From Pontibacter roseus DSM 17521 (GTDB lineage: Bacteria; Bacteroidota; Bacteroidia; Cytophagales; Hymenobacteraceae), in contig NZ_KB890767.1 in NCBI RefSeq assembly GCF_000373265.1, positions 248,001 to 312,000 of the forward strand: a stretch of DNA of 64,000 nucleotides, given 5' to 3'. The first letter of the stretch is position 1, and each line of letters starts with the position of its first letter. Of this stretch, positions 1 through 64,000 are shown in pieces. The notes under the pieces were generated by a model. The model was not told the origin of the DNA. It worked only from the letters and a program-made list of their open reading frames with translations, and did not search any database. Made by a program: the position numbers and the translations under genes.

Positions 1-2
1 AT

Positions 3-908
3 GAGGCTACACTGAACAGAACCTTGGATAACCTCCAGGAGACCGTGCGGCAAATCAGGGTTAAATCCCCTAATGTCATCATCCTGATGGCGCAACTGAT
101 TCCGATAGACTACGGCAATGGAAATGCGAACCGAAACGTCAGCAATCTCAATGCGCGCATCCCGGCTCTGGCGCAGGAACTGAACACAATCCAGTCCCCT
201 GTGGTGGTGGTAGACCAGAATACCGGTTTCGACGCGACTTCAGGACGTGACACCTACGATGGTCTGCATCCCAACGCCAGCGGCATGGAGAAAATAGCCC
301 AGCGCTGGTTTGAGGCCATCATGGACCAGATTATTGTACCGCTTCCTGTGGAACTGGTCAGCTTCAAAGGTATAGCCACTACCAGCGGGGTACAGCTTTC
401 CTGGTCCACTGCCTCCGAGCAGGACAACAGCCATTTTGAGGTACAGCGCGCTCTAGACGCATCTGATTTTGCTGCCATCGGCCAGGTAGAGGGTGCAGGC
501 ACTACTTCACTCACCCGCAGCTATGCCTTCGAGGACAAGGAGGCGTCCGCCGGCACCAGCTACTACCGCCTGAAGCAAGTGGATTTCAGCGGAGAGACCA
601 GCTACTCCAACGTGGTGGCGGTAACCACCAGTTCAGACGGACTGGCAGCTGACATGCGCCTATACCCTACCCACACGCGAGGGGACCTGGTGACACTCCA
701 ACTGATGGCGCTGCAGCCGCAGGAAAAATTCAACGTGGAAATCTATACCTTGGAGGGCAAACTGGTGAAGACATTCGCGGCCGAGGCGGACAGACGAGGC
801 AATTACGCTGAGCGCATCAACCCGGCCGAGCTTCAAAAGGCTAGCCTTTACCTGGTGCGGGCAACCTTCCCAGACCGGGTATACCTGCGGCACCTGATGG
901 TGGACTAG
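3..908 (+). CDS. Secreted SGNH/GDSL hydrolase, C-terminal part, with type IX secretion sorting domain
   Basis: The reading frame is open from the window edge, so the true start lies upstream; the TTG at 24 is probably internal. The visible N-terminal part ends with DGLHPNASGMEKIAQ, which fits block V of SGNH hydrolases (the DxxH catalytic Asp/His pair); the serine block must lie outside the window. It is followed by a linker domain starting PLPVELVSFKG and containing YYRLKQVDFSG, typical of Bacteroidota secreted proteins, and by an approximately 80-residue C-terminal domain (LYPTHTRGDLVTL to RHLMVD) resembling type A T9SS sorting domains. Inference: an esterase or carbohydrate esterase exported through the outer membrane by T9SS. 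The substrate cannot be told from this fragment. Confidence 0.8.
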   Translation, partial: EATLNRTLDNLQETVRQIRVKSPNVIILMAQLIPIDYGNGNANRNVSNLNARIPALAQELNTIQSPVVVVDQNTGFDATSGRDTYDGLHPNASGMEKIAQRWFEAIMDQIIVPLPVELVSFKGIATTSGVQLSWSTASEQDNSHFEVQRALDASDFAAIGQVEGAGTTSLTRSYAFEDKEASAGTSYYRLKQVDFSGETSYSNVVAVTTSSDGLAADMRLYPTHTRGDLVTLQLMALQPQEKFNVEIYTLEGKLVKTFAAEADRRGNYAERINPAELQKASLYLVRATFPDRVYLRHLMVD

Positions 909-940
909 CAGGAGAGGCATAGGGTAAATGTCGGCACAGG

Positions 941-1558
941 CTACTGCTGTTGCAACAACTCAATCACTTCTTCGTCGCTCACCTGCGAGAACTCCTGGTA
1001 GAACTGCCCCACTGCCTGAAAGAAAGGCGGCACGAGTAGGCATACCACCTCATCGACCAGGGCAGTGAACCGCTCAATGGCAGATGGGGGAGCCACCGGC
1101 ACAGCCACGATGATTTTGCGCGGGTGCTGCTTCCTGACCAGGTTCACAGTGGACAGCAGCGTTTTGCCGGTAGCAATGCCATCATCTACAATGATGACGA
1201 TGCGGTCCTGAAGGGCAACGGGTTGCCGGTTGCCCATGAAGAGGCGGTACTTCCTGTGCAGGCTTTCCCGTATACGCTTTACTTCGGCAGCTACGTATTC
1301 CTGCGGCACGTTGATATGTTCCTCCACCTCCACATCGTCCAGGCTCACGGCCCCAATGGCGTACTCCGGATTAGCAGGATGCCCGATTTTCTTGGACACC
1401 GTCACTTCCAGTGGCATACCTAACCGCTTGGCGATAGGAGCCGCAACGGGCACGCCGCCTCTGGGTATGGCGAGTACCACGCCCAATTGGCCCTGGTACT
1501 TCTCCAGCCTGTCCGCCAGCAGCAGCGCCGCCTCTTCCCTGTTCTTGATGTACTCCAT
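941..1558 (-). CDS. Phosphoribosyltransferase-domain protein
   Basis: 205 residues. The PRPP-binding loop of type I phosphoribosyltransferases is visible as VDDGIATGKT (residues 124-133), and the N-terminal IPRGGVPVA (31-39) is the second conserved strand-loop of this family. Family members are annotated as phosphoribosyltransferases of unknown acceptor. The gene lies 59 bp downstream of the alpha/beta hydrolase gene on the same strand, so the two are probably cotranscribed. In other bacteria a PRTase of this kind is fused or adjacent to a dienelactone-hydrolase-like protein, which supports a joint but unknown role. It is unlikely to be a nucleotide-salvage enzyme of known specificity because it lacks the context of one. 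Confidence 0.85.
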   Translation of the reverse strand: MEYIKNREEAALLLADRLEKYQGQLGVVLAIPRGGVPVAAPIAKRLGMPLEVTVSKKIGHPANPEYAIGAVSLDDVEVEEHINVPQEYVAAEVKRIRESLHRKYRLFMGNRQPVALQDRIVIIVDDGIATGKTLLSTVNLVRKQHPRKIIVAVPVAPPSAIERFTALVDEVVCLLVPPFFQAVGQFYQEFSQVSDEEVIELLQQQ

Positions 1559-1617
1559 ACTATATGGCTTGAGCTATTCTTAGGTCATGACATGTGCACC
1601 TCGGCACGCTGCTATAC

Positions 1618-2301
1618 CTAGGGCTGGTCCTGGCGCAGCGGGTGCTGCTTGCCGGGGCCCAGGTACTTCCGGAACCAGTCGGTGGCCAACTGCGCGGCCA
1701 TCTCCAGCGCCCCCGGCTCCTCAAACAGATGGGTGGCGTCCGGTACAAGCTCCAGGTCCTTGATGCATTGCAGCTGTTCTTGCGCCTGAATATTTAGGGC
1801 CAGCACCTGTTCATCCAGCCCGCCCACGATCAGCAGCGTGGGCGCCTGTACATCCGGCAATATGTCCCCTGCCAGGTCGGGTCGGCCTCCCCTGCTCACC
1901 ACGGCGTCTATGATATCGCCTCCCAGGGCTGCTGCTGCGCCCAGGGCGGAGGCGGCTCCTGTGCTGGCCCCAAAGAATCCGTACCGCAAATCCCCTGTCA
2001 GTTCGTTTTGCTGCAGCCAGTTCACAGCGGCTATCAGGCGGGTGGTCAGCAGCGGCACGTCAAATCGGTTTTCGCGCCGCTGGTCTTCCTGTTGCGTGAG
2101 CAGGTCTAGCAGTAACGTGGCGAAACCGGAGCGTTGCAGGTGCTCCGCCACAAAGCGGTTGCGTGGGCTCAGGCGGCTGCTGCCGCTGCCATGCGAAAAA
2201 ATCACCAGCCCTTTTGCCTCCTGCGGCACGGCCAAGTCGCCCATGATTTGCGCGTCCTGCACCTCTATGCTGACGCTGTCATTGAATCTATAATCTACCA
2301 T
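1618..2301 (-). CDS. Alpha/beta hydrolase, dienelactone-hydrolase-like
   Basis: 227 residues with an alpha/beta hydrolase fold. FSHGSGSS (35-42) forms the oxyanion-hole region. The nucleophile elbow is GASTGA (111-116) with Ser113, and candidate acid and base residues are Asp163 (GGLDEQV) and His191 (DATHLF). There is no signal peptide, so it should be cytoplasmic. It is the first gene of a two-gene minus-strand unit with the phosphoribosyltransferase. A possible TACGTTTG box on the minus strand at 2435-2428 lies about 125 bp upstream. The family includes dienelactone hydrolases and many unassigned esterases; the substrate is unknown. Confidence 0.85.
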   Translation of the reverse strand: MVDYRFNDSVSIEVQDAQIMGDLAVPQEAKGLVIFSHGSGSSRLSPRNRFVAEHLQRSGFATLLLDLLTQQEDQRRENRFDVPLLTTRLIAAVNWLQQNELTGDLRYGFFGASTGAASALGAAAALGGDIIDAVVSRGGRPDLAGDILPDVQAPTLLIVGGLDEQVLALNIQAQEQLQCIKDLELVPDATHLFEEPGALEMAAQLATDWFRKYLGPGKQHPLRQDQP

Positions 2302-2463
2302 TCCGATTGTTTTCGTTTGTGCCTGTCCTGCTTTGTCTTAGTCCTTTGATGTACGACCTGGGTGGGCAATGGTTGAATTCGATTCTTCTCTAGGTCAGGC
2401 AGTATCCGCTTCACCTTCTCCCTCTGCCAAACGTATAGGAGCTATACCCCTCATCCATTCTTT

Positions 2464-3153
2464 ATGTATAGCACACGGCATCTGTTGTTGGCCTTCGCTG
2501 GACTCAGTCTCTGCCTGGCTTCTTGTAGTTCGGGGGAGCAGGAACAGACCATGGCATCGGAGGAGGCGCAGGAGCCGGAGCGGCTGGAAGAGGTGCAGGA
2601 GGAGCACGAGCGGCGGAACAGCACCCCGGGGCTGGACACCATCGGGTTTGAATCGGCTTTCACTCTTTTCCTGCAGGCGCTGCAACTGGCTGACACCGCC
2701 GCCCTCAACCAATACATTCACCCCGACTATGGCTTGTGGGTGATTGAACAGCCCGGTGCCATGCCGAAAATGACATATGTGACCGACATACGGGATTTCA
2801 AGCGGGAATTCCAGGACCGCTCCTTCTTCACGGTGCGGGAGGAAGTCACCTCATGCGACCTGCAGGAAGAGGCGTGGCCCAGTTTTGATTGCGCCAACCT
2901 GAACTACGACAAAGGGCAGTCCGGGTATAGCAAGGACGGCTGCTTTGTAGGCCCACCCAACAAGTTCCGGACTAGCGGCTACTGGGACTACGCCAGTCTA
3001 TCCAATGACGAGGTGCAACGCGTGAAGGCAAGCTTGCCGCTCCTGCACAAATCGGTGCTGCACACCGCCACCTCCTTTGAGTTCCACTTCGGCCAGGTGG
3101 ACGGCCAGTGGCGGTTGCTCTTCACCAAACTCATCCACCCCTGCAGCGCGTAG
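2464..3153 (+). CDS. Hypothetical lipoprotein
   Basis: 229 residues. The N-terminus is a lipoprotein signal (hydrophobic LLLAFAGLSLCLA followed by lipobox LASC, Cys21), then an acidic, Glu-rich stretch (about residues 22-55) that probably acts as a flexible tether. The folded remainder has four further cysteines, in TSCDLQ, DCANLN, DGCFVG and the C-terminal HPCSA. I do not recognise the family. No acidic sorting sequence directly follows Cys21 (SSGEQE), so which membrane it ends up in is open. It stands alone between the oppositely oriented hydrolase pair and endonuclease V. Confidence 0.75.
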   Translation: MYSTRHLLLAFAGLSLCLASCSSGEQEQTMASEEAQEPERLEEVQEEHERRNSTPGLDTIGFESAFTLFLQALQLADTAALNQYIHPDYGLWVIEQPGAMPKMTYVTDIRDFKREFQDRSFFTVREEVTSCDLQEEAWPSFDCANLNYDKGQSGYSKDGCFVGPPNKFRTSGYWDYASLSNDEVQRVKASLPLLHKSVLHTATSFEFHFGQVDGQWRLLFTKLIHPCSA

Positions 3154-3343
3154 AGAGTTTAGGAGTTTAAGCTTCTAGGAGGGAAGAGGGAAACCTTAAT
3201 ACTTTCTATAGCCTCTGCATCTGTCGCCTTTATGGTCACGAAAAACGTATTCACGTATCCGATAGATTAAACTTCATCTACCGTAACTCATTTCAAGCAT
3301 TCTATTTCTTAAACCCCCTCAACTCCCAAACTTCTAAACTCTC
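3153..3343. repeat. Inverted repeat bounding the lipoprotein-endonuclease V gap
   Basis: The gap is bounded by GAGAGTTTAGGAGTTT (3153-3168) and, as its inverse with one mismatch, the segment at 3328-3343. The right arm is part of a longer AACTCCCAAACTTCTAAACTCTC-like leader that ends directly at the endonuclease V start. Between the arms I see no ORF. It could be a small non-coding repeat unit or two copies of a recurring leader in opposite orientation. Confidence 0.45.
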
Positions 3344-3345
3344 CC

Positions 3346-4032
3346 ATGGCCTACTTCCGACGCTTTGACTATCCTGCCCCTGACCCGGCTATACTGGCCC
3401 GCCTCACGGAGCAGCAACGCGAGATGCAGGAGCGCATCATCCTCCAGAAACCGGATTTTGACCTGAAGCTCATTGCCGGCTGTGACTCCTCTTTCATAGG
3501 CGAGGATACCATTCTGTCGGTCTTCGTGCTACTCACCTATCCTGGGCTGGAGGTGCTGGAGAAGGTATGGCACCACGGGCCGGTGGAGCTGCCTTACATC
3601 CCTGGTTTCCTGGCCTTCCGGGAGGCGCCCAACCTGCTCAAGGCCTACGAGAAGCTACAGCAGAAACCGGATTTGATTATGGTGGACGGACACGGTATTT
3701 CGCACCCGCGCCGCTTAGGTATAGCCACGCACCTAGGGCTGCACCTGAACAAACCGACCATGGGTGTCGCCAAGAAGGTGTTGGTAGGCAAATACAAGGA
3801 GCCGGACACTGCAAAAGGCTCCATGTCGCCGCTAGAGCACAAAGGTGAAATCATCGCCAACGTGCTTCGCACAAAGGACAATGTGAAGCCCGTCTTCATA
3901 TCAGCCGGCCATCTGATGGATTTGCAGTCAGCTACGGAAATAGCGATGGCCTGCGCCGTCAAGCACAAGTTGCCGGAGCCCACCCGTCTGGCCGACCATT
4001 ATGCAGCGGTTTTTAAAAGTGAGGTGAAATGA
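3346..4032 (+). CDS. nfi: Endonuclease V (deoxyinosine 3' endonuclease)
   Basis: 228 residues, normal for the family. Endonuclease V nicks DNA near deoxyinosine and other deaminated bases and starts their repair. The conserved blocks are present: AGCDSSF with Asp47, PYIPGFLAFRE (83-93) with Glu93, and VDGHGISHPRRLGIA (113-127) with Asp114, together giving the D-E-D metal site. The ATG at 3346 is the only sensible start, and it directly follows the repeat leader ending at 3343. Transcription probably ends at the hairpin at 4133-4187. It appears to be a single-gene unit. Confidence 0.95.
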   Translation: MAYFRRFDYPAPDPAILARLTEQQREMQERIILQKPDFDLKLIAGCDSSFIGEDTILSVFVLLTYPGLEVLEKVWHHGPVELPYIPGFLAFREAPNLLKAYEKLQQKPDLIMVDGHGISHPRRLGIATHLGLHLNKPTMGVAKKVLVGKYKEPDTAKGSMSPLEHKGEIIANVLRTKDNVKPVFISAGHLMDLQSATEIAMACAVKHKLPEPTRLADHYAAVFKSEVK

Positions 4033-4132
4033 TTTGGAGTCCTTACGACTGACTGTTTCCTAAAGCTAATCACCTGAGACACCTTCCTATTCTGCAATTT
4101 CAAACATATCCCCCTCTCCTATACCTTCTTGT

Positions 4133-4187
4133 ATAAAAGCCCTTCAATAAATAAGCCGCAATAGCTCATTTACTGAAGGGCTTTTAT
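4133..4187 (+). terminator. Hairpin terminator after endonuclease V
   Basis: A 20-bp stem (4133-4152 with 4168-4187, one mismatch) closes a 15-nt loop. The stem carries AAAAGCCCTTCA and its complement, so the 3' arm ends in a CTTTTATTTC tract. The symmetry would also allow termination on the other strand. Confidence 0.75.
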
Positions 4188-4430
4188 TTCTTCCCCTGCC
4201 TGCAGAGGCCGTTTCCACTCCTTCCAAGCATTCGCATTTTGAGTCTATAGGCCTGGCATAGCCTTTAAAATGCGCTATATGCAGGTATAAGTAAATATAT
4301 ATTCTCTATTAGAACACAACAAACATCATGTTCTGAACTGACCCTTATCATCCTTTAGGCTGCCACGGCCCGCTACCTTTGTCACATACAATAACAGCAG
4401 AACAACCAAAGGTACTATAAACTCAATGTC
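4188..4430. other. Intergenic region ahead of the YceI operon
   Basis: No ORF and no RNA gene recognised. It holds one AGGTATA copy (4284-4290), an AT-rich stretch (4285-4325) and the candidate -7 box at 4374-4381. Confidence 0.5.
4374..4381 (+). promoter_or_regulatory. Candidate Bacteroidota -7 box for the YceI operon
   Basis: TACCTTTG matches TAnnTTTG exactly, 50 bp before the first ATG. The -33 TTTG is not clear (TTTA at 4355-4358). Confidence 0.5.
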
Positions 4431-5021
4431 ATGAAAAATCCAAATTTAACAACACTGCTGATTTCCGCAGCCCTGTTCCTGGGATTAGGCGTCAGCAACC
4501 TCCTCCACGCCCAAGGCACCTACCGCCTCACCGGCAAACCTGTTCTGACAGTGATGGGAGGTTCCACCATACACGACTGGGAAATGTCTTCTGCACAGTC
4601 TCAGGGCAGGGCCGAGATTCTTGTCGATGGCACCTCGCTCAAGCATGTAAAGTCTGCGAACGTGACTATGAAAGCCGAGTCGCTGAAGAGTGGAAAGGAC
4701 AAGATGGATGGGATTGCTTATGACGCGCTCAAAACCAAAAAACACCCGGATATCCTGTTCACGCTGACCTCTTTCAAAAGCCTGGGCGGCAACAAGGGAC
4801 TGGCAACAGGTAACCTGACAATAGCAGGCACCACAAAACCGGTCGCGTTCAAAGTGGAGTCGAGCACCAAAGGAGACATGGTATACCTGTCAGGGGAGAC
4901 GGCCATCAAGTTCACCGATTTCAACATCACCCCTCCCACTGCCATGCTGGGCACCATCAAGACGAGCAACGACCTGAAGCTGCTTTTCAAAGTCAACTTC
5001 CAGCAGGCTGTCCTCCAATAA
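4431..5021 (+). CDS. YceI family periplasmic protein
   Basis: 196 residues with a signal peptide (cleavage probably after LLHA, near residue 27). The remainder matches the YceI lipocalin-like barrel: GGSTIHDWEM near the start, YDALKTKKHPDILFTL in the middle (the family H-P-x-I/A-x-F block) and TPPTAMLGTIKTSNDLKLLFKV at the end. Characterised YceI-like proteins bind long isoprenoid lipids in a central cavity; whether this one does is inference. It is first in a three-gene unit, 40 bp ahead of a beta-barrel protein and followed by a second YceI-type protein, suggesting envelope lipid or hydrophobic-ligand handling. Confidence 0.9.
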   Translation: MKNPNLTTLLISAALFLGLGVSNLLHAQGTYRLTGKPVLTVMGGSTIHDWEMSSAQSQGRAEILVDGTSLKHVKSANVTMKAESLKSGKDKMDGIAYDALKTKKHPDILFTLTSFKSLGGNKGLATGNLTIAGTTKPVAFKVESSTKGDMVYLSGETAIKFTDFNITPPTAMLGTIKTSNDLKLLFKVNFQQAVLQ

Positions 5022-5061
5022 TCAACTTAAAATTCTTCCAAGAAAAATAACTCTTACAGTC

Positions 5062-6417
5062 ATGAAAAAATCGATACTCTCTTTAGGCTTGATGCTAGGC
5101 TTGAGCTTAAGTTCCTTTGCCCAAATCACCCTCTCCGATATGAAGTACTGGAGACCGTATGACAAGCGGGGCATCAACGTTTTCGAAACAGGCAAAACAG
5201 ACACCGCTACGTTCGAAGGCATCAAAGTGAGGCTAGGCGGCAGCTTCGCACAGCAGTTCCAGGGCCTGCAGCACAAAAACACCGCTACCGCAATCATGCA
5301 GACGCAGAGCGGTGCCGAAGTGAACATGAACCAGCTGATGCCCATCGAGAATGGCTTCAACCTGGCCTCTGCCAACCTGAACCTGGACGTGGCGCTCGCG
5401 GATGGTATCCGGCTGAACCTGGTGACGTACCTGTCTTCCCGACACCACTCTGAGGCTTGGGTGAAAGGTGGATACATCCAGGTAGACAAAGCGGAGTTCC
5501 TGAACAGCGAACTGGTGAACAGGCTGTTTGAGAACCTGACGCTACGTGTCGGTCACATGGAAATCAACTACGGCGATGCGCACTTCAGAAGAACAGACAA
5601 CGCGCACGCCCTGCAGAACCCCTTCGTGGGCAACTACATCATGGACGCCTTTACAACTGAAATCGGCGCTGAGGCCATCTACCAGTACAAAGGATTCCTG
5701 GCAGTAGGCTCTGTGACCGGCGGCGAAGTGCAAGGCGGTATCCAAAACCCTGGCCAGCGCAAGCCTTCTTTCATCGGCAAGCTCGGTTACGACAGCCAAG
5801 TGTCTGAAGACCTAAGAGTGAGACTGACCAGTTCCGTTTATACCACGGCTGGTTCTGTTAGAAACACATTGTATGGCGGCGACCGTGCTGGCTCACGCTA
5901 CTTCCTGGTGATGGACCCAGCCAGAGTGGCCAGTGGAGCGGCGGTAACACCAGCCACACACTTTACTTCAGGTCACATCAACCCAGGTATTACCAACAGC
6001 CTGACAGCCCTGGTAGTCAACCCATTCGTCAAGTTCAAGGGACTGGAGTTCTTCGGTAACTTCGAGCAGGCCAAAGGCAAAGGCAGACTGGGCGCCAATG
6101 ACGAACCATCTGACCGCACCTGGAGACAGCTTGGAACAGACCTGGTATACCGCTTCGGTGGCAACGAGAACTTCTACGTGGCAGGCCGCTACAACGTGGT
6201 GAAAGGTCGCCTTGCTCCCCTGGCCTCTGCCCCTACCGTGCAAAACAACATGGTGACCCTGGAAAGGGTACAGGCAGGTGCCGGCTGGTTTGTGACCAAG
6301 AACATCGTAGCCAAAGCGGAGTACGTGAAGCAGCAATACAAAGGCTTCGCTCCCAGCGACATCCGCCATGGTGGCCAGTTTGATGGCTTCATGATAGAAG
6401 GCGCTATCTCATTCTAA
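5062..6417 (+). CDS. Outer-membrane beta-barrel (porin-like) protein
   Basis: 451 residues with a clear signal peptide (MKKSILSLGLMLGLSLSSFAQ, cut near Ala20). The mature part has alternating amphipathic strands, frequent Gly and aromatic residues, and a last strand GGQFDGFMIEGAISF ending in Phe, the usual outer-membrane insertion signal. It lacks a TonB box and plug domain, so it is not a TonB-dependent receptor. It sits between two YceI-family genes (40 bp and 11 bp spacings), so it is almost certainly cotranscribed with them. A porin or ligand-export channel is likely, but the substrate is unknown. Confidence 0.75.
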   Translation: MKKSILSLGLMLGLSLSSFAQITLSDMKYWRPYDKRGINVFETGKTDTATFEGIKVRLGGSFAQQFQGLQHKNTATAIMQTQSGAEVNMNQLMPIENGFNLASANLNLDVALADGIRLNLVTYLSSRHHSEAWVKGGYIQVDKAEFLNSELVNRLFENLTLRVGHMEINYGDAHFRRTDNAHALQNPFVGNYIMDAFTTEIGAEAIYQYKGFLAVGSVTGGEVQGGIQNPGQRKPSFIGKLGYDSQVSEDLRVRLTSSVYTTAGSVRNTLYGGDRAGSRYFLVMDPARVASGAAVTPATHFTSGHINPGITNSLTALVVNPFVKFKGLEFFGNFEQAKGKGRLGANDEPSDRTWRQLGTDLVYRFGGNENFYVAGRYNVVKGRLAPLASAPTVQNNMVTLERVQAGAGWFVTKNIVAKAEYVKQQYKGFAPSDIRHGGQFDGFMIEGAISF

Positions 6418-6428
6418 CACCAAAACCC

Positions 6429-7034
6429 ATGTTCCATAGCCCTATCTTTGTGGTTGCTGCCTTTCTAATGAGTGCGGCGCTGCTCCCGAAAGAAGAGTTT
6501 GTCGTTGTCAAAGGCAACAAAATAACCGTACAGGCACATACTTCGCTCGGAACCATCAACTGCGCTTACACAGGCGGCAGCCAGAAAGATACCCTCTACC
6601 TGAACAGGCAGCATCTGCAGAAAGACAGGCTGAGACTGACGATTCCGGTCGAGAAGTTCAATTGCGGCAACCTGCTCCTGAACCGGGACTTTGCCAACAC
6701 CCTGAATGTGAAGCAGCATCCGGAGATAGAGATTGAGCTGATTAGCCTGAAAAGACAGGGCAAGGACTACCAAGGAGAACTGAAACTGGAGTTGGCTGGC
6801 AAAACCATACTTCTGAACGATGTCCAGTTCTATACCTGCTCCGGTAACAACGCAGATTTGCTGAAGAGCAACATCTGCCTGGACTTCTCTGAAATTGGAC
6901 TTACGACTCCCAAAAAGCTGGGTGGCTTGTTTAAGGTGGAGGATGAGCTTCGGATAACAGTGGAGCTATACCTGAACCCCAAACAGCACAGCGGCTTGCT
7001 TCCTAAGTCAGCAGTTACCTTAAAAGCAAGTTGA
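6429..7034 (+). CDS. YceI-like periplasmic protein, second copy
   Basis: 201 residues. The N-terminal hydrophobic segment (IFVVAAFLMSAALL) is a probable signal sequence, although no clear AxA cut site is visible. The core resembles YceI: LTIPVEKFNCGNLLLNRDF, LNVKQHPEIEIELISL (the H-P block) and a C-terminal KLGGLFKVEDELRITVELYL. It is more diverged than the first copy and has three Cys residues that are absent there (CAYTGG, FNCGN, TCSG), plus one in NICLD. Last gene of the three-gene operon and followed by a strong terminator. The two copies may bind different ligands or act on either side of the barrel protein. Confidence 0.75.
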   Translation: MFHSPIFVVAAFLMSAALLPKEEFVVVKGNKITVQAHTSLGTINCAYTGGSQKDTLYLNRQHLQKDRLRLTIPVEKFNCGNLLLNRDFANTLNVKQHPEIEIELISLKRQGKDYQGELKLELAGKTILLNDVQFYTCSGNNADLLKSNICLDFSEIGLTTPKKLGGLFKVEDELRITVELYLNPKQHSGLLPKSAVTLKAS

Positions 7035-7090
7035 CCATGGGATGATGGAAAGCAATCGATGAGATGCAATAGATGCAACAGCTACATAGA

Positions 7091-7125
7091 CAGAAGGCCC
7101 CGAAGCTATGATTCGGGGCCTTCTG
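7091..7125 (+). terminator. Rho-independent terminator of the YceI operon
   Basis: A perfect 14-bp stem (7091-7104 with 7112-7125, CAGAAGGCCCCGAA and complement) with loop GCTATGA, followed by TATTTCC. It ends the three-gene unit. Confidence 0.85.
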
Positions 7126-7277
7126 TATTTCCACTATACTGCCACTATGTCCTGATATTGCAAAAGGCCAAGGTATAACTATGTCAAAATTTCAGGAAAA
7201 TCATATCAAAATACCATTGGTGTATCCTTTGCTACTTGCCTCGTAGAACTAAGACTAGGGGAAAACAGTAAAGCGAT

Positions 7278-11559: not shown

Positions 11560-11587
11560 CTATACCTATACCTATACCTATACCTAT
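11560..11587 (+). repeat. Tandem CTATAC hexamer array at the esterase start codon
   Basis: Four exact CTATAC units (11560-11583) plus CTAT run directly into the ATG at 11586. Each junction recreates the CTATACCT octamer that is iterated through the window. The array is in the 5' untranslated region if the ATG at 11586 is used, and in frame with the gene if an upstream start is used. Confidence 0.9.
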
Positions 11588-18123: not shown

Positions 18124-18163
18124 AGCCCGGCCCCCAGGTATAGCTATACCTGGGGGCCGGGCT
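18124..18163 (-). terminator. Perfect 40-bp palindromic terminator with the iterated motif at its apex
   Basis: Two 20-nt arms (18124-18143 and 18144-18163) are exact reverse complements with no spacer. The apex is CAGGTATAGCTATACCTG (18135-18152), two copies of the window-wide decamer head to head; the base is a GC-rich AGCCCGGCCCC arm. On the minus strand the hairpin is followed by TTTTGCGG, so it fits termination of the gene ending at 18183. Confidence 0.85.
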
Positions 18164-23211: not shown

Positions 23212-23216
23212 GCATC

Positions 23217-32183: not shown

Positions 32184-34145
32184 ATGCAAGAAGTAGTAAT
32201 GCCCATCAACAATCAGGAAATGGCGCTGCTGTGTTTGCTTGTGCCGCTCCTGCCGTTCATAGGCTTTCTGATTAACGGTCTTGGCAACCGCAAATTGCCT
32301 AAGGCCCTGGTAGGCCTGCTGGGCAGTGGCACGGTGCTGGCCTCGTTCCTGATATCGGTATACCTGTTCATAGACTTCACTTCCAATGGCAGCCGCCCTT
32401 ACATCGTGGACCTCTACAACTGGTTCACGGTAGGCAGCCTCGAGATTGGTTTCTCGTTCATGATTGACCAGCTCACCCTGCTGATGTTGCTGATGGTGAC
32501 TGGTATAGGTTTCCTGATTCACGTGTACTCGGCCGGCTATATGAGCCATGATGAAGGCTACGGCAAGTTCTTCGCCTACCTCAACCTGTTCATGTTCTCG
32601 ATGTTGCTGCTCGTGATGGGCTCTAACTACGTGATGATGTTCGTAGGCTGGGAAGGCGTAGGCCTCTGCTCCTACCTGCTAATTGGCTTCTGGAACAAGA
32701 ACCACAACTATAACAACGCCGCCAAGAAAGCCTTCATCATGAACCGCATCGGTGACTTGGGCTTCCTGCTGGGCATTTTCTTGATTTTCATCACCTTCGG
32801 CAGCGTGAGCTACCCGGAGGTGTTCCTGTCTGCCTCGCAGATGACGGGTATGACCGATAGCGGTGTGATGATTGCCATTACGATGCTGCTGTTTGTGGGG
32901 GCGATGGGTAAAAGTGCGCAGATTCCACTGTTCACGTGGCTTCCTGACGCGATGGCGGGTCCTACGCCTGTTTCGGCCCTGATTCACGCCGCTACCATGG
33001 TGACGGCGGGTATTTACATGGTGCTTCGCTCGAACGTGCTGTATGCACTGGCCCCGACTACGATGGAGTTTATTGCCATCATCGGTCTAATAACTGCCTT
33101 GGTGGCCGCTACCATCGGTCTGGCGCAGAATGACATCAAAAAGGTACTGGCTTACTCTACTGTTTCGCAGTTAGGCTTTATGTTCCTGGCGCTGGGTGTG
33201 ATGGCCTTCTCCTCTTCTATCTTCCACGTGCTTACACACGCATTCTTCAAGGCCCTCCTTTTCCTGGGTGCTGGTTCTGTGATTCACGCCGTGAGCAACG
33301 AGCAGGATATCCGCAACATGGGCGGCTTGCGCAAGTGGTTGCCAATTACGTTTATCACCTTCCTGATTGGTACACTCGCTATTTCAGGTATACCGCCGTT
33401 TGCTGGTTTCTTCTCTAAGGACGAATTGCTGGCGCATGTGTTTGAGCACAACAAGCTGATGTGGGCACTTGGCCTGCTGGCTTCGTTCATGACGGCTTTC
33501 TACATGTTCCGCCTGCTGTTCCTGACCTTCTTCGGCAAGTTCCGTGGCACGGAAGCACAGCGTTCGCACCTGCACGAGTCGCCTTCTTCCATGACCATTC
33601 CGCTGATTGTGCTGGCTATACTCTCTACAGTAGGTGGTTTCATTGGTCTGCCAGCCGTGTTCAGCGACACGCATACCTTGGGCAACTTCCTGTCGCCTAT
33701 CTACGACTTCGCCCGCCAAGCCAATGCTACGGCGCTGGAGCCGGCGCACATCGACCATGCCACCGAATACATCCTGATGGGGGTTTCGGTCGTGGTGTCG
33801 CTTATCGCCATTGCCATTGCTTATGTGCTGTATGTGAAAAAAGAAACGGTACCCGCTCCGGAAGGCGCCCGTCTGTCTCCGATTCACAACCTCATCTACA
33901 ACAAGTATTACGTTGACGAGATTTACAATGCGGTTATCGTGCGTCCGCTGATGGCCCTGTCTTCCGCCTTCCACCGCTTCGTGGATGTGATTGTAGTAGA
34001 TGGCATCGTGAATGGCTTCGGTAAGCTTGTGATGCTGACCGGCCGCACCCTGCGCTATGCACAGAGCGGCGTGATTGGCTTTTACGTGCTCTTGATGGTG
34101 GCCAGCATTGTTCTGATTCTATTTTTAAACTTCTTTATCGGATAA
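32184..34145 (+). CDS. nuoL: NADH-quinone oxidoreductase subunit L
   Basis: 653 residues, the distal antiporter-like subunit with the long lateral helix. MGSNYVMMFVGWEGVGLCSYLLIGFW and the GPTPVSALIHAATMVTAGIYMV block carry the conserved Glu, Lys and His of the proton path. The start may be the ATG at 32184 or 32202 (MPINNQE). Confidence 0.96.
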   Translation: MQEVVMPINNQEMALLCLLVPLLPFIGFLINGLGNRKLPKALVGLLGSGTVLASFLISVYLFIDFTSNGSRPYIVDLYNWFTVGSLEIGFSFMIDQLTLLMLLMVTGIGFLIHVYSAGYMSHDEGYGKFFAYLNLFMFSMLLLVMGSNYVMMFVGWEGVGLCSYLLIGFWNKNHNYNNAAKKAFIMNRIGDLGFLLGIFLIFITFGSVSYPEVFLSASQMTGMTDSGVMIAITMLLFVGAMGKSAQIPLFTWLPDAMAGPTPVSALIHAATMVTAGIYMVLRSNVLYALAPTTMEFIAIIGLITALVAATIGLAQNDIKKVLAYSTVSQLGFMFLALGVMAFSSSIFHVLTHAFFKALLFLGAGSVIHAVSNEQDIRNMGGLRKWLPITFITFLIGTLAISGIPPFAGFFSKDELLAHVFEHNKLMWALGLLASFMTAFYMFRLLFLTFFGKFRGTEAQRSHLHESPSSMTIPLIVLAILSTVGGFIGLPAVFSDTHTLGNFLSPIYDFARQANATALEPAHIDHATEYILMGVSVVVSLIAIAIAYVLYVKKETVPAPEGARLSPIHNLIYNKYYVDEIYNAVIVRPLMALSSAFHRFVDVIVVDGIVNGFGKLVMLTGRTLRYAQSGVIGFYVLLMVASIVLILFLNFFIG

Positions 34146-34157
34146 GGTTCTAAGAAG

Positions 34158-35618
34158 ATGATTACAGCTCTATTACTTTTCTGGCCTGCCCTAGCTGCAC
34201 TGCTGGTGTTGCTGATTAAGGGACAAGGTGCCAAGAAAGTGGCTTTCATAGCAACGCTTGTTGAGTTCGCCATTGCCCTTTTCGCGACCGTGAACTTTGT
34301 ACCTGACGCTACCACACAGTTTGCCCTGGACATGCCGTGGGTGGAACGTGCCGGCATCGGCTTCAGCATCGGCATGGATGGCATCAGCCTCCTGATGGTG
34401 CTCCTGACCACGTTCCTGATGCCGCTCATCGTGCTTTCTTCCTTTAAGCACGACTACAAAGACCCGCACGTGTTTTACGCGCTGGTTCTGTTCATGCAGA
34501 CCGGCCTGATTGGTGTGTTTGTGGCCATGGATGCGTTTCTGTTCTACTTCTTCTGGGAAGTGGCGCTGATTCCGATTTACTTTATTGCGGCCATCTGGGG
34601 CGGCGCGCGCAGGATACCGGTTACGTTCAAGTTCTTCGTGTACACGATTTTCGGCTCGCTCTTCATGCTGGCGGCCTTCGTATACCTGTACTTCCAGACG
34701 GCTGGCACAGGTATAGCAGCGCACTCCTCTAACGTGAATGCCTTCTACCAACTGACGTTGGATAGCGCCACGCAGAGCTGGATTTTCTGGTTCCTGTTCC
34801 TAGCCTTCGCCATCAAGATGCCGGTGTTCCCGTTCCATACCTGGCAACCGGATACCTATACAGAATCTCCTACACAAGCAACCATGCTGCTGGCTGGCAT
34901 CATGCTGAAAATGGGTATATACGGTGTGCTGCGCTGGTTGCTCCCGGTGGTGCCGATGGGCGTGAGCCAGTGGGCTGACACCGTACTGGTGCTGTCTATC
35001 ATCGGTATAGTTTACGCCTCCATCATCGCCATACGCCAGCAGGACCTGAAACGCCTGATTGCCTACTCGTCCATCGCGCACGTGGGTTTGATTGCCGCCG
35101 GCATCTTTGCCCTGAACGAGCAGGGTCTGCAGGGTGGTGTGTTGCAGATGCTGAGCCACGGCATCAACGTGGTGGGCTTGTTCTTCATCATCGACATCAT
35201 TTTCCGCCGCACCAATACCCGTGAGATTGCCAGCCTCGGCGGCATCACGCAGACGACGCCGGTGCTCTCCATCATCTTCCTGATTCTGCTCATGGGCTCG
35301 ATAGCACTTCCGCTGACAAACGGCTTTATCGGGGAGTTCCTGCTGCTGTCAGGCGTGTTCCAGCACAACTTCTACTTTGGCGCCTTTGCCGGCACGACTA
35401 TTATCCTGGGTTCGGTATACATGCTGCGCATGTTCCAGGGCGTGATGTTCGGCACCAAGTCAGAAGCGACGGAAGGCTTTGCTGACCTGAACTTCAACGA
35501 GAAGGCGGTGCTGATTCCGTTGGTCATCATGGTGTTCTGGATTGGCCTGTTCCCGAACACGTTCCTGAGCATCTCTGAGCCTGCTGTCGGACAACTGCTG
35601 AGCATTATCAACCGATAG
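34158..35618 (+). CDS. nuoM: NADH-quinone oxidoreductase subunit M
   Basis: 486 residues, antiporter-like subunit. FYFFWEVALIPIYFIAAIWGG has the conserved Glu, and FHTWQPDTYTESPTQATMLLAGIMLKMGIYG is the family core. Starts 12 bp after nuoL. Confidence 0.96.
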   Translation: MITALLLFWPALAALLVLLIKGQGAKKVAFIATLVEFAIALFATVNFVPDATTQFALDMPWVERAGIGFSIGMDGISLLMVLLTTFLMPLIVLSSFKHDYKDPHVFYALVLFMQTGLIGVFVAMDAFLFYFFWEVALIPIYFIAAIWGGARRIPVTFKFFVYTIFGSLFMLAAFVYLYFQTAGTGIAAHSSNVNAFYQLTLDSATQSWIFWFLFLAFAIKMPVFPFHTWQPDTYTESPTQATMLLAGIMLKMGIYGVLRWLLPVVPMGVSQWADTVLVLSIIGIVYASIIAIRQQDLKRLIAYSSIAHVGLIAAGIFALNEQGLQGGVLQMLSHGINVVGLFFIIDIIFRRTNTREIASLGGITQTTPVLSIIFLILLMGSIALPLTNGFIGEFLLLSGVFQHNFYFGAFAGTTIILGSVYMLRMFQGVMFGTKSEATEGFADLNFNEKAVLIPLVIMVFWIGLFPNTFLSISEPAVGQLLSIINR

Positions 35619-35653
35619 TCCGCACACGAAACAAGAAACGATATTACAACGAC

Positions 35654-37039
35654 ATGATTTCGATAATACTGCTTTCCGGGTTTGGGATAATCAACCTCTT
35701 CGTAGGTTTCCTGAAATCTAAGAGAATCCTGTTGCCACTGTCGCTGCTGTTCCTGGCGATTGTGTTCGGCGTCAACCTGCTTGACTGGAACGATACCCAG
35801 AGCTACTTCAACAACATGCTCACCATCGACAATTACGCGGTGGCTTTTACGGGCATCATGGTCCTTTCCACGCTGCTGATATTGCCGTTCACGCAGCACT
35901 TCATCACCCGCAACGACGAGAACCTGGGCGAATACTACGCCCTGCTGCTGTTCTCGCTGGTGGGCGCCGTGATGATGGTGAGCTACGAGAACCTGCTGAT
36001 GCTGTTTGTGGGGCTGGAGATTCTCTCTATAGCCATGTACGTGATGGCAGGTAGCGACAAGAGCAGCCTGCGCTCCGCTGAGGCGGGTCTGAAATATTTC
36101 CTGATGGGCTCTTTCTTCACTGGTGTGCTGCTGTTTGGCATGGTGATGATTTACGGAGCGACCGGCACCTTCAACATTACCGAAATCAGCGCCACGCAGG
36201 CCATAGGCGCAGACGGCGTGACCAACACCATGTTCGTGCTGGGGCTGCTGCTGATTGTGATTGGCATCTCCTTCAAGATATCAGCCGCGCCGTTCCACTT
36301 CTGGACGCCGGACGTGTACGAAGGCACTCCTACTGTATGGACGGCCTACATGTCTACGGTGGTGAAAACGGCTGGTGTGGCGGCCTTCTTCAAACTGATG
36401 TACGCAGCCTTCGCTGCGTCTTACGCCTCATGGATGCCAACGCTGGTGGCCATCACAGTGCTCACGCTCGTGATAGGAAACATTGGCGCGGTGGTGCAGC
36501 AGAACATGAAGCGTATGCTGGCCTACTCCAGTATATCCCATGCTGGCTACATGCTCATGGCTTTGATTGCCTTTAACGAATACTCAGAGTCTTCCATCCT
36601 GTTCTACTCCTTCGCCTACTCCACTGCCTCCATCGCCGCCTTTGGTGTGCTGCAACTGGTGGTGAAACAGCGCGGCAGCGAGACGTTTGAGGCCTTCAAC
36701 GGATTGGGCAAAACAAATCCACTCCTGGCGTTGGCCGTGACGGTATCCATGCTGTCGTTGGGAGGTATACCGCTGACAGCCGGCTTCTTCGGCAAGTTCT
36801 TCGTATTTGCCTCCCTTATTGAGAACCCTGATATGATGTGGCTGATAGTGGTTGCCGTGGTGCTGGCCGCTGTGGGCATCTACTATTACTTCAAAGTGGT
36901 GATTGCCATGTACATGCACCCTGCCGGGGACCATGCACCGATTCAGGTGTCAGGCTTCATCAACGCCATGTTGATTATCATCACGGCACTCACCATACTA
37001 CTAGGTATAGCCCCTGCCTTGCTCAGCGACATTCTCTAA
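35654..37039 (+). CDS. nuoN: NADH-quinone oxidoreductase subunit N
   Basis: 461 residues, third antiporter-like subunit. ENLLMLFVGLEILSIAMYVMAG and APFHFWTPDVYEGTPTVWTAYMSTVVKTAGVAA are diagnostic. 35 bp after nuoM; ends the operon before a strong terminator. Confidence 0.95.
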   Translation: MISIILLSGFGIINLFVGFLKSKRILLPLSLLFLAIVFGVNLLDWNDTQSYFNNMLTIDNYAVAFTGIMVLSTLLILPFTQHFITRNDENLGEYYALLLFSLVGAVMMVSYENLLMLFVGLEILSIAMYVMAGSDKSSLRSAEAGLKYFLMGSFFTGVLLFGMVMIYGATGTFNITEISATQAIGADGVTNTMFVLGLLLIVIGISFKISAAPFHFWTPDVYEGTPTVWTAYMSTVVKTAGVAAFFKLMYAAFAASYASWMPTLVAITVLTLVIGNIGAVVQQNMKRMLAYSSISHAGYMLMALIAFNEYSESSILFYSFAYSTASIAAFGVLQLVVKQRGSETFEAFNGLGKTNPLLALAVTVSMLSLGGIPLTAGFFGKFFVFASLIENPDMMWLIVVAVVLAAVGIYYYFKVVIAMYMHPAGDHAPIQVSGFINAMLIIITALTILLGIAPALLSDIL

Positions 37040-42126: not shown

Positions 42127-42145
42127 AGGTATAGTCGCTATACCT
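42127..42145. repeat. Inverted pair of the iterated octamer at the aspS stop codon
   Basis: AGGTATAG (42127-42134) and CTATACCT (42138-42145) face each other across TCG. The right copy overlaps the aspS stop codon (complement of 42144-42146). Read as RNA from the minus strand it would form an 8-bp hairpin at the end of the aspS message. Confidence 0.85.
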
Positions 42146-43904
42146 ATTTGGCTGGCAGGTCCTTCATCCGGATATGCAGTTCATCCAGTTGGGCATGAGC
42201 GATAGGAGCGGGCGCGTCTATCATCACGTCGCGGCCAGAGTTGTTCTTCGGGAAGGCGATGAAGTCACGGATGGAGTCTGCGCCGCCGAAGAGGGAACAA
42301 AGCCTGTCGAAACCGAAGGCGATGCCGCCATGCGGAGGAGCGCCGTACTCAAAAGCGTCCATCAGGAAGCCAAACTGTGACTTCGCCTCATCGTTGGAGA
42401 AGCCCAACAGGCGGAACATCTGCTCCTGCAAGCGGCGGTCGTGTATACGGATAGAACCTCCGCCCACTTCCACACCGTTGATGACCATGTCGTAGGCATT
42501 GGCTCTGATGTCACCTGGTCGGTCATCTATCAACTCCAGGTCCTCTGGCTTAGGCGACGTGAACGGGTGGTGCATGGCGTGGAAGCGGTTGCTGTCCTCG
42601 TCCCACTCCAGCAGCGGGAAGTCCACTACCCACAGCGGCGAGAACACGTTTTTGTCGCGCAAGCCCAGTCGCTCTCCCATTTCCAGGCGAAGCTCGTTCA
42701 GTGCCTTACGCGTTTTGTCTCGGCCACCGGCTAGCACCAACAGTAAATCGCCGGGCTGCGCGTTGAAGGCAGCGGCCCAAGCCTGCAGGTCTTCGGAGGT
42801 ATAGAACTTGTCAACAGATGACTTCACGGAGCCGTCTTCCTGCACGCGCGCGTATACCAGACCGGTAGCACCAATCTGCGGACGCTTCACGAAATCGGTC
42901 AGTTCATCGAGCTGCTTACGGGTATAGCTGGCGGCTCCTTTGGCATTTATACCTACTACCAGTTCGGCATCGTCGAATACCTTGAAGCCTTTGTTCTTCA
43001 CCAGCGGGTTCAGTTCCACAAAGTGCATATCGAAGCGCGTATCGGGCTTATCGGAACCGTATAGCCGCATGGCATCGGCGTACGTCATGCGCGGCAGGTG
43101 CGGGATGTGTATGCCTTTCACCTTCAGGAACAGGTGGCGAATCAGACCCTCAAAGGTGTTCAGGATGTCTTCCTGCGTCACGAAGGAAAGTTCGCAGTCA
43201 ATCTGGGTGAACTCCGGCTGGCGGTCGGCGCGCAGGTCCTCGTCGCGGAAGCATTTCACAATCTGATAATACTTATCAAAACCGGACACCATCAGCAGCT
43301 GCTTGAATGTCTGCGGCGACTGCGGCAGGGCGTAGAACTCACCTGGGTTCATACGGCTCGGCACCACAAAATCGCGGGCGCCCTCCGGCGTGGACTTTAT
43401 CAGCACTGGCGTCTCCACCTCAATGAAGTAATGTTCGTCGAGGTAGGCGCGTACGGCGCGCATCATCTGGTGGCGCAGCTCCAGGTTGCGGCGCACGGGT
43501 GTGCGGCGCAGGTCCAGGTAGCGGTACTTCATGCGCAGGTCATCGCCACCGTCTGTCTCGTCCTCTATCATAAATGGCGGCAGCTTGGCGGGGTTCAGCA
43601 CCTCCAATTTCGTCACCTTTATTTCAATCTCCCCTGTCGGAATTTTGTCGTTTTTGGAGTAGCGCTCAATCACACGGCCTATCGCCTTCAGCACATACTC
43701 GCGGCCCAGGCCACGGGCCTGCTCAAACAGGTGAGCGGGCGTGACGCCATCCTCGAAGGTGAGCTGCGTGATGCCGTAACGGTCGCGGAGGTCAATCCAG
43801 AGCATGCCGCCCTTGTCGCGCAGGCGCTGTACCCAACCTGTCAGTACAACCTCCTCGCCTACGTTATCTATTCTTAGTTCGCCACAAGTGTGTGTCCGGA
43901 GCAT
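42144..43904 (-). CDS. aspS: Aspartyl-tRNA synthetase
   Basis: 586 residues, normal bacterial length. Charges tRNA-Asp. The N-terminal OB fold ([26 protein letters not shown]) binds the anticodon; class II motif 2 is seen in [23 protein letters not shown] and motif 3 in [16 protein letters not shown]. The bacterial-type insertion domain lies between motifs 2 and 3. Single gene; candidate minus-strand -7 box at 43937-43930. Confidence 0.97.
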
Positions 43905-60603: not shown

Positions 60604-60604
60604 G

Positions 60605-62214: not shown

Positions 62215-62392
62215 CTTCTGGGGAAGTTAGGAATGCTAAATTAGGAATTATGGGTGAGTATATTTATCCTTAGTTGCTGATTGCTGCTCGTCTATTCTCA
62301 ATTGTTGTTTGATATTCGTTGGGTCACTACCTGCAGCATACCTGAAGATGAACGTAATACCTAACTTTCTAACTCCCAAACTCTGAACTTCC

Positions 62393-62788: not shown

Positions 62789-62795
62789 ATGAAAA

Positions 62796-62831
62796 GGCCT
62801 ATGTTTCTGAGGTGAACCAGGGACATAGGCC
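62796..62831 (-). terminator. Candidate terminator between convergent genes
   Basis: GGCCTATGT (62796-62804) pairs with ACATAGGCC (62823-62831), loop 18 nt. Read on the minus strand, after the lipoprotein gene, it is followed by TTTTC, so it better suits that gene. Confidence 0.5.
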
Positions 62832-62854
62832 AAGAGGAGGCTTGTTGAACTTCT

Positions 62855-63322
62855 TTATTTGTTTCCTGCCTTCACGCGTTTGTATATACTATGCGGGGCA
62901 TCGCAGGCTAAGCCATTCTCAGATAATACGTCTGTAGACTTCAGAGACAGATAACTATGGTTAGGCTTACAGCTGAGGTCTAATGGGAATCTGTCTGCGC
63001 TTTCCTTTATTTCTTCATAGGTAAGTACGGCATACGTCTCTCCATCAATCTGCTGTAAAGTATAGGTTCCTGTGCCCTCCGCTCCTGTCGAGCGTGACTT
63101 ACGAAAGGTGCCATCAGCGGACAGAGTATAATACTCCTGATAGGTCAAATCCTCTTCACGCACAATTACTCCTGAAAGCCCAGCATCGTACTCCACTAAC
63201 TGCCAAGTTCCGGTAAAGTCGAGGGGTGTTACTTCATCGTCCTTCTCAGAGTCGCAAGCTGCTGCAAAGGCAATGGCAAAGAGTAGAGTGAATGAGCGTA
63301 GTAGTAGCTTCATATGATGCAT
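62855..63322 (-). CDS. Lipocalin-like lipoprotein
   Basis: 155 residues from the Met at 63322; a Met three codons further in (63313) would also give the lipoprotein signal KLLLRSFTLLFAIAFAAAC. Following the Cys come DSEKDDEVTPLDFTGTWQLVEYD, the GTW start of lipocalin-like (DUF4923/lipocalin_4) proteins of Bacteroidota, and YTLSADGTFRKSRS. Ligand unknown. Confidence 0.75.
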   Translation of the reverse strand: MHHMKLLLRSFTLLFAIAFAAACDSEKDDEVTPLDFTGTWQLVEYDAGLSGVIVREEDLTYQEYYTLSADGTFRKSRSTGAEGTGTYTLQQIDGETYAVLTYEEIKESADRFPLDLSCKPNHSYLSLKSTDVLSENGLACDAPHSIYKRVKAGNK

Positions 63323-63676
63323 CTTAAAGGTTGGTTTTATTACATGACCCGCCAATAAACCTGAAGGTTGCAACGACTTAAAAATATTAAAGAAGATACT
63401 ACCATACTATTGCTAGTCCTTGCCAATTCTATTTGAAGCTTGTCAAAAGTGTGAAACATCATCATTTAAACAATTCCAGCAAGTACAAATAGGACACTTT
63501 TTCCTGAGTTCGTCCTGGAATACCTCTACAAGAACACAGCTAATTATTAGCATAATACCACGAAACCACGCATTATACCCTATATTTACAGGGTTACGTA
63601 CTAAATAGCTATCACCGAAACGTTATACCCTTGCCTGCAGAGGCTGGATAACAATGTTTTACTTAAAAAGATAGCT
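63323..63676. other. Intergenic region lipoprotein gene / beta-barrel gene
   Basis: 354 bp; a + strand ORF at 63420-63608 has no family features and I do not count it as a gene. TATACC copies lie near 63573 and 63624. Nothing else seen. Confidence 0.4.
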
Positions 63677-64000
63677 ATGAAGCGTTTCATCATAACCATA
63701 ATTACCATTTTCGCCTTGGGCACGGCGGCACAGGCGCAGTTTCTGACAGGTGGCGTCAAAGCAGGTGTCGGCTCCTCAAGCGTGGGCGTGCGCGATGTGG
63801 CCAATAACCCACTGCAGTATGCTAAAAAAGAGTCTGTGACCAGCTTCCACGCCGGTGCCTTTGCTCGCGTCAACATTTTAGGCCTTTTCCTACAACCAGA
63901 GGCCATCTTCACACAGACGGGCGGTAAGCTGGAGTCGAGGCCAGACGCGACCATCGTTAGCCAGGTGTCTGAAATTACCTTCAACCGATTGGATGTGCCT
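63677..64000 (+). CDS. Outer-membrane beta-barrel protein, 5' part
   Basis: First 108 codons, running off the window. Signal peptide MKRFIITIITIFALGTAAQAQ, then FLTGGVKAGVGSSSVGV and SFHAGAFARVNILGLFLQPEAIFTQTGGKL, the alternating-strand pattern of the PorT/OMP_b-brl_2 type small barrels of Bacteroidota. Confidence 0.75.
   Translation, partial: MKRFIITIITIFALGTAAQAQFLTGGVKAGVGSSSVGVRDVANNPLQYAKKESVTSFHAGAFARVNILGLFLQPEAIFTQTGGKLESRPDATIVSQVSEITFNRLDVP

Follow-up and report, generated by a model that had tools for sequence, protein, structure and literature searches.

The window and its iterated octamer

The stretch of DNA analysed here (the window; 64,000 nt of Pontibacter roseus DSM 17521) carries nuoL–nuoM–nuoN, SusC/SusD-like genes and aspS, whose product is 94–95% identical to AspS of Pontibacter ramchanderi, P. 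virosus, P. aquaedesilientis and P. indicus, in keeping with the genus Pontibacter (Bacteroidota, Cytophagales). Scans for tRNA genes and Rfam families gave no matches in it. Scattered across it are copies of a short word, the octamer CTATACCT and its decamer form GCTATACCTG (Table 1). One short word is stamped thousands of times in most of the Pontibacter genomes that we examined, its spelling differing by branch.

By exact search the window holds 64 copies of CTATACCT on the two strands, against a mean of 0.80 and a maximum of 5 in 100 dinucleotide shuffles, and 20 copies of GCTATACCTG (shuffle mean 0.04), in close agreement with the roughly 62 octamers and 20 decamers counted by eye in a preliminary description of this DNA. 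An order-3 Markov model fitted to the window itself puts CTATACCT first among its over-represented 8-mers (64 versus 6.2 expected, z 22). The enrichment extends well beyond the window: the P. roseus genome that carries it (4,581,480 bases in 12 contigs; the own genome) contains 4,500 octamers, near-equally divided between strands over all contigs (2,196/2,304), versus 108 copies of the reversed word, and 1,257 decamers versus 7. In 464 kb of the own genome, 482 octamers were observed versus 27.5 (order 3) or 45.7 (order 4) expected with the motif masked in training, and CTATACCT is still the top 8-mer of 400 kb under an order-5 model (418 versus 249, z 10.7), which was left unmasked, so that its expectation is inflated by the motif itself. 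An excess over third- and fifth-order Markov models, the lack of which the preliminary description had set beforehand as refuting its proposal, is thus present at orders 3, 4 and 5, and the other refuting outcome that it had named, a confinement of the excess to the window, did not arise either.

The copies use both orientations, as had been claimed for them, and all reading frames. Among 406 open reading frames (ORFs; 411 kb), called by a simple longest-ORF method with no gene finder, 323 coding copies were found versus 13.3 ± 4.1 in synonymous-codon shuffles, the largest of 50 shuffles giving 21. On this result codon or amino-acid bias was rejected as the source of the word, and the earlier statement that codon bias does not suffice holds. 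Spacing between copies is near Poisson, with coefficients of variation of 1.13 and 1.02.

Branch-specific spellings in Pontibacter

Whole-genome counts were made in 50 Pontibacter genomes, a genome being assigned to a dialect when it held at least 1,500 copies of a word and 10 times as many as of the reversed word. By this rule CTATACCT is the dialect of 12 genomes (2,823–5,222 copies each), TTATACTT of 20 (2,246–7,030) and CTATAGTT of 4 (6,292–8,208), and three more (G302, G330 and G202) carry TTATACTT and CTATAGTT together. At least one word is therefore iterated in 39 of the 50, and none of the three in the other 11. The separation of dialects is incomplete. Genomes of the CTATACCT dialect hold 276–453 copies of TTATACTT, about 2–3 times the reversed word; the four CTATAGTT genomes hold 788–921 copies of TTATACTT; and G334 holds 907 of CTATAGTT. 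Relics may account for the 204–1,201 copies of TTATACTT in the 11 motif-free genomes, which amount to 1.3 to 4.8 times the reversed word. No 8-mer exceeded z 6.2 in samples of the motif-free genomes; a relaxed form is raised in number in G326, with 41 copies in 20 kb.

The same words emerge when 8-mers are ranked in samples of up to 20 kb around nuoM, which cover 40 of the 49 Pontibacter genomes besides the own one. All 11 samples from the clade of the window have CTATACCT in first place. Among the other 29 samples, TTATACTT ranks first in 12 and second in one (G309) and CTATAGTT ranks first in 5; no word stands out clearly in the last 11. A further 80 loci of up to 7.8 kb were too short for reliable word finding, except for TTATACTT in Pontibacter sp. 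172403-2.

A tree of 41 genomes was built from NuoLMN by a quick method. In it the 12 CTATACCT genomes group together in a clade of their own, and the CTATAGTT genomes do so with the mixed ones, each clade with a Shimodaira–Hasegawa-like approximate likelihood ratio support of 100 (G202 was labelled CTATAGTT on this tree and is mixed under the later count rule). The motif-free state requires at least 3–4 changes. If G160 and G310, two of the genomes whose NuoM diverges most, are assumed to be the outgroup, TTATACTT lineages branch first, and TTATACTT therefore looks ancestral, a direction that depends on the assumed root.

Form and placement of the word

Single-mismatch forms of CTATACCT are enriched mainly at its outer positions. 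Under the order-3 model the enriched forms are G (4.9-fold) and T (3.0-fold) at position 0, C at position 1 (6.2-fold) and C at position 7 (4.7-fold), versus at most 2.1-fold at core positions 2–6; under order 4, in a larger sample of the own genome, the same forms give 2.2, 1.6, 2.9 and 3.3, and the core at most 1.8. In G237, changes to TTATACTT are tolerated at its first two positions (0 and 1); in G316, CTATAGTT is tolerant at four positions, 0, 1, 6 and 7. All three dialect words share TATA followed by C or G, and a final T; in the flanks of CTATACCT, G is preferred before the word and G or T after it. Such position-dependent tolerance would be expected from a reader with a stricter core, not from uniform mutational decay.

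The word is concentrated between genes. The ratio of intergenic to intragenic density is 3.6 in the own genome (646 sites, 612 kb), 4.9 in G237, 6.0 in G316 and 6.4 in six pooled TTATACTT genomes, versus 1.37 for 220 shuffled control words, and convergent gaps are the densest in all four samples. Close inverted pairs, with starts at most 24 bases apart, occur in the own genome 8 times in the order AGGTATAG..CTATACCT versus once in the reverse order, and in G237 5 times as reverse..forward versus 3 times as forward..reverse; most of the 48 close inverted pairs of G316 are the palindrome AACTATAGTT. One pair in the window lies between a SusD-like ORF that ends at 42039 and the converging aspS, whose last two bases it overlaps, a terminator-like placement. 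Loop-0 pairs, of which the window has one (Table 1), also occur elsewhere in the own genome, and overlapping CTATACCT pairs with a 6-bp period number 11 in the 464-kb sample, including 3 within the window's single cluster of four copies. Strand asymmetry about the turn of the cumulative GC skew, another check that had been proposed, was absent over 400 kb of contig C1 (164/131 versus 67/56, Fisher p 0.91), and with it any polarity of the kind shown by Chi sites or FtsK-orienting polar sequences (KOPS).

Depletion on a probable plasmid

CTATACCT has 418 copies in 400,000 bases of contig C1 (1.04 per kb) and a density of 1.03 per kb on C11. Contig C10 of the same genome holds 4 copies in 76,284 bases (0.05 per kb), an approximately 20-fold depletion. 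Its genes include a relaxase, TraG, TraM, a DUF4138 (TraN-type) protein and a coupling protein, and the TraG encoded on it shares 98% identity with proteins from plasmids of P. kalidii and P. actiniarum; from this gene content, C10 is probably a conjugative plasmid. In 50-kb plasmid samples from hosts whose dialects are not established by name, TTATACTT occurs 4 times in P. kalidii, 3 times in P. akesuensis and 12 times in P. actiniarum.

C10 also carries adjacent genes for a cGAS-like CD-NTase (cGAS/DncV-like nucleotidyltransferase; below the model cut-off) and a SAVED-domain protein (L191:9696-12406), possibly a defence pair of the cyclic-oligonucleotide-based anti-phage signalling system (CBASS), and genes resembling resistance–nodulation–division (RND) efflux, P-type ATPase and copper-oxidase genes (L192:788-17840).

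A proposed uptake-type self-recognition word

Established cases of iterated uptake words come from Neisseriaceae and Pasteurellaceae, in which the type IV pilus takes part in uptake. We regard as evenly balanced the proposal that CTATACCT is the local dialect of a genome-wide, uptake-type self-recognition word of Pontibacter, working like a DNA uptake sequence (DUS). Taken together, its features resemble those of uptake words more than those of Chi sites or methylation-linked palindromes, or what compositional bias would give. The word would be read on incoming double-stranded DNA by an uptake system in the outer membrane or periplasm, fragments bearing it would be preferentially imported by way of ComEC and then recombined into homologous sites, and this recombination would spread and preserve the word as a molecular drive.

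The closest parallel is the DUS of Neisseriaceae, which, according to the excerpts of PMC3630211 used here, comes in thousands of copies per genome and in dialects that follow phylogeny and share a common core, with one two-dialect genome, permissive intergenic regions, inverted pairs and some family members devoid of the word. The Pontibacter word differs from it in being an 8–10-base, TA-centred word, in belonging to Bacteroidota and in the company it keeps: no type IV pilus ATPase was recognised, and ComP was not searched for. With the uptake signal sequence (USS) of Pasteurellaceae it shares over-representation and a graded mismatch spectrum, interpreted there as molecular drive; sequence, phylum and machinery differ, and preferential uptake has been demonstrated for the USS and not for the Pontibacter word (PMC1939737, in part).

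In Bacteroidota, a transposon screen of Riemerella anatipestifer returned eight genes essential for transformation, namely those for ComEC, DprA, ComF and RecA and for four proteins unlike known machinery, none of the eight being a pilus gene in the portions of PMC8459023 used here. This suggests that Bacteroidota can transform with ComEC, DprA, ComF, RecA and proteins unlike known machinery. We infer that Riemerella-type transformation needs no pilus, and likewise that the reader of the Pontibacter word belongs to a transformation apparatus working without type IV pili. The parallel with Riemerella has its limits: a term search of the available text of PMC8459023 returned neither 'uptake sequence' nor 'uptake signal', and DUF5689, a domain of a Riemerella transformation protein, does not follow the word in Pontibacter. 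In the open-licence literature, where absence is no proof, the matches listed contained no description of an iterated word of this sort in Pontibacter, Hymenobacter or Bacteroidetes, and the parts of PMC3497702 and PMC5217627 consulted name no such word for this group.

If the uptake proposal is true, self-selective DNA uptake has evolved with different machinery; otherwise another process yields the same genomic signature, and either outcome bears on why iterated words exist. The genus amounts to a natural experiment: its 50 genomes span three dialects, include three that are mixed and record several losses, so that an association of gene content with dialect should be able to reveal the reader gene.

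Several observations weigh against an uptake function. Across the 50 Pontibacter genomes, matches to the type IV pilus ATPase family PF00437 (PilB/PilT/GspE) covered only 38–66 of 370 profile positions. Up to 31 first-look candidates were scored per genome, and the control genomes were positive in 14 of 14 cases. Three matches fell just over the family cut-off (25.0–25.9 versus 24.9 bits); the short P-loop match of the own genome turned out to be an IGHMBP2-family helicase, and the other matches were not identified one by one. We therefore set aside the type IV pilus route: no such ATPase being recognised, the only known DUS/USS route seems absent, and with the classical uptake motor not found we do not class the word as a DUS of the Neisseriaceae kind. 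The searches made turned up no reader protein. ComEC is present in all 50 genomes, the 11 motif-free ones included, and so does not track the motif. DUF5689 was rejected as a candidate, its distribution being unrelated to the motif: it occurs in 22 of the 50 genomes (17/39 motif-bearing, 5/11 motif-free) and is missing from the own genome. For natural transformation in Pontibacter, the only match in the open-licence literature was a paper on LexA, with each term found once in the text available.

The features of the word itself also speak less than uniformly for uptake. Inverted pairs are few in the own genome and in G237. The order-4 profile weakens the contrast between outer and core positions somewhat, its direction unchanged, and the tolerance of CTATAGTT at positions 6 and 7 means that the strict core differs between dialects. 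The plasmid sample of P. actiniarum is less depleted than C10, and that plasmid would be only mildly depleted if its host is G291 (2,246 copies of TTATACTT in 5.0 Mb); a second motif-poor contig of the own genome, C12 (14.9 kb, one copy), could not be identified as a plasmid. Conservation at orthologous positions, which the preliminary description had proposed to examine, cuts both ways. Between genomes of the CTATACCT clade, in pairwise, non-independent comparisons, the word is retained at 52.5% of intergenic sites (261/497) versus 31.2% for other 8-mers and at 55.0% of coding sites (496/902) versus 35.8%, and where coding copies were lost without an indel the amino acids were the same in 194 comparisons and different in 183. 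Two fixed control words were kept at 394/660 and 788/964 sites versus 757/1,399 for the motif; with control words kept as well or better and the excess only moderate, conservation carries little weight for an uptake function. Of the roles that had been suggested from the letters alone (uptake, methylation or maintenance), the uptake type is the one favoured, by dialects, intergenic enrichment, some inverted pairs between converging genes and depletion on the plasmid contig; its classical motor was not found, nor was a link to methylation through the family PF01555, and the earlier interpretation is supported in part.

Two observations stand beside these searches. The comEC frame is interrupted by an in-frame stop in G325 (C76:160505-161305) and G309 (C1:2771217-2771876), which may be assembly error; G309 holds 2,537 copies of TTATACTT, fewer than its clade members G300, G304 and G314 and more than G291. 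Contig C12 (L180) encodes large Big-domain proteins.

Alternative explanations

That the word holds the site of a solitary methyltransferase, its methylated copies serving maintenance or repair and each dialect switch marking a replacement of the enzyme, strikes us as unlikely. Many methylation sites are short and asymmetric, as is the least tolerant stretch of the word, ATACC/GGTAT, and G316, a genome of the CTATAGTT dialect, has many perfect palindromes AACTATAGTT. The model here is the highly iterated palindrome HIP1 of cyanobacteria, likewise a dispersed octamer of similar density that is replaced by other words in single lineages; according to the excerpts of PMC4390886 used here, HIP-like words switch with their cognate methyltransferases and vary least at methylated positions. 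HIP1 is, however, a palindrome tied in the same excerpts to GATC and CGATCG methyltransferases, whereas the Pontibacter word is asymmetric (PMC4390886). Neither of the top words, CTATACCT and TTATACTT, is a perfect palindrome with a GATC core, and the palindromes in which CTATAGTT often lies are without GATC. The methyltransferase family PF01555 (N6_N4_Mtase) occurs in 31 of the 50 genomes (26/39 motif-bearing, 5/11 motif-free) and is absent from 19, including the own genome; as a candidate cognate enzyme it was rejected because it does not follow the motif, other methyltransferase families not having been searched. A non-palindromic word of 8–10 bases with tolerant flanks would also be unusual for a methyltransferase, and a methylated maintenance site alone leaves the depletion of the plasmid contig unexplained. 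Direct selection at many sites for binding of a nucleoid or chromosome-organising protein is a decidedly unlikely account: it would suit a density of about one per kb on the chromosome, the roughly Poisson spacing and the TA-centred quasi-palindromes, yet if each site were needed it would be hard to see how several lineages came to near-complete loss (11/50 genomes) or how thousands of sites (2,246–8,208 in single-dialect genomes) were re-spelled, and retention within the clade is only moderate (52–55%).

We give still less credence to a Chi-like recombination hotspot for a nuclease–helicase of the RecBCD/AddAB type, diverging between clades. Chi is itself an over-represented octamer, Chi sites differ between species, and plasmid depletion would fit. 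Chi sites are also named as a class of over-represented oligomers in the excerpts of PMC4390886. Unlike Chi sites, the Pontibacter word has no strand polarity in the 400 kb about the GC-skew turn and near-equal numbers on the two strands genome-wide, and its strong bias towards intergenic and above all convergent gaps would not be expected of such a hotspot. Least credible is a compositional artefact of codon choice, amino-acid bias or context-dependent mutation. Codon preference would favour a shared frame, and offset 2 is indeed common to 268 of 441 coding sites; against this stand the excess over synonymous shuffles, the higher density outside genes, the near-absence of the word from a plasmid contig of the same genome and a near-miss enrichment that depends on position instead of being uniform.

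Iterated words elsewhere in Hymenobacteraceae

Beyond Pontibacter, order-level draws covered 291 genomes, 6 of them Pontibacter. Outside the genus, GCTATACCTG reaches at most 54 copies (in a 9.5-Mb genome with 7 of the reversed word), and TTATACTT does not rise above about 2.4 times the reversed word in the clear cases. Other words are iterated elsewhere in Hymenobacteraceae. CCCTAGGT is iterated in 9 of the 204 family genomes searched, comprising 3 of the 8 genomes of one genus (g5; 2,808–3,106 copies) and six of a large second genus (g2; two near 2,700 copies and four with 337–988), and samples from the family yielded ACCTAGGT, CCCTAGGG, AGCTAGGT and GGGGTAGG as further iterated words.

Tentatively, the Pontibacter words and the CCTAGG-type words of other genera (Table 1) share a TA core. 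This comparison of sequences is tentative because the samples are short, seven of them having been picked for already high counts, and because words of other kinds reach comparable z (7.1 in G402, 7.1 in G342, 7.3 in G449, 7.9 on C1 of G403 and 9.9 in G353). A wider proposal, which we rather doubt, is that sequence-specific uptake without type IV pili would extend across Hymenobacteraceae, through a reader of TA-centred half-sites (TACCT, TACTT and TAGTT in Pontibacter; TAGGT, TAGGG or TACCC-like in other genera) that would have been repeatedly re-spelled and lost, with clades separated by exchange barriers and mixed-dialect genomes in transition.

Single loci add further words. In 20 kb of each of two more family genomes, GGGTAGGG has 12 copies (L219) and GGGGTAGG 19 (L223); GGGGCCCC has 15 copies in 18.7 kb versus 1.4 expected (L221); and in Spirosoma terrae CCCCTAAA has 7 copies in 7.8 kb versus 0.15 expected (L013). 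G403, with 2,746 copies of CCCTAGGT genome-wide, has 2 in 20 kb of contig C1 (L215) and none in 20 kb of C3 (L236), and these CCCTAGGT-poor stretches are possibly plasmids or islands.

Other features of the window

Table 1. Positions of the word, its paired arrangements and reference genes in the window, and loci with related words
Feature	Position	Strand	Basis or remark
CTATACCT, plus-strand starts (35)	743, 1612, 4119, 6830, 6966, 11560, 11566, 11572, 11578, 11754, 12036, 12063, 13378, 14064, 14619, 16597, 18144, 19528, 19780, 20168, 22006, 23741, 27135, 30451, 31523, 42138, 50455, 50570, 52722, 52963, 55521, 57980, 58107, 60605, 61096	+	Exact search
CTATACCT, minus-strand starts (29)	368, 3717, 11429, 12962, 13268, 18136, 19326, 20047, 21911, 26454, 28401, 30850, 34709, 37003, 37154, 37178, 38911, 42127, 42797, 44345, 44993, 46304, 47650, 51113, 51434, 55441, 56909, 58672, 59785	-	Exact search
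Four CTATACCT copies overlapping with a 6-bp period	11560..11585	+	Exact search
Two GCTATACCTG decamers on opposite strands with a 2-base overlap, forming an 18-bp perfect palindrome	18135..18152		Exact search
Inverted pair AGGTATAG-3 nt-CTATACCT	42127..42145		Between converging SusD-like ORF and aspS
nuoL-nuoM-nuoN	32184..37039	+	Syntenic markers for the tree and for sampling of homologous regions
aspS (aspartyl-tRNA synthetase)	42144..43904	-	Pfam domains; minus-strand gene ending at 42144
CCTAGG-type iterated words (CCCTAGGT, ACCTAGGT, CCCTAGGG), other Hymenobacteraceae	L183, L214, L216, L218, L228, L230, L235		

The window also encodes, at 49239-52871, a 1,210-residue protein in which an M1 peptidase domain is accompanied by weak ABC-2 membrane matches that stay below their cut-offs.

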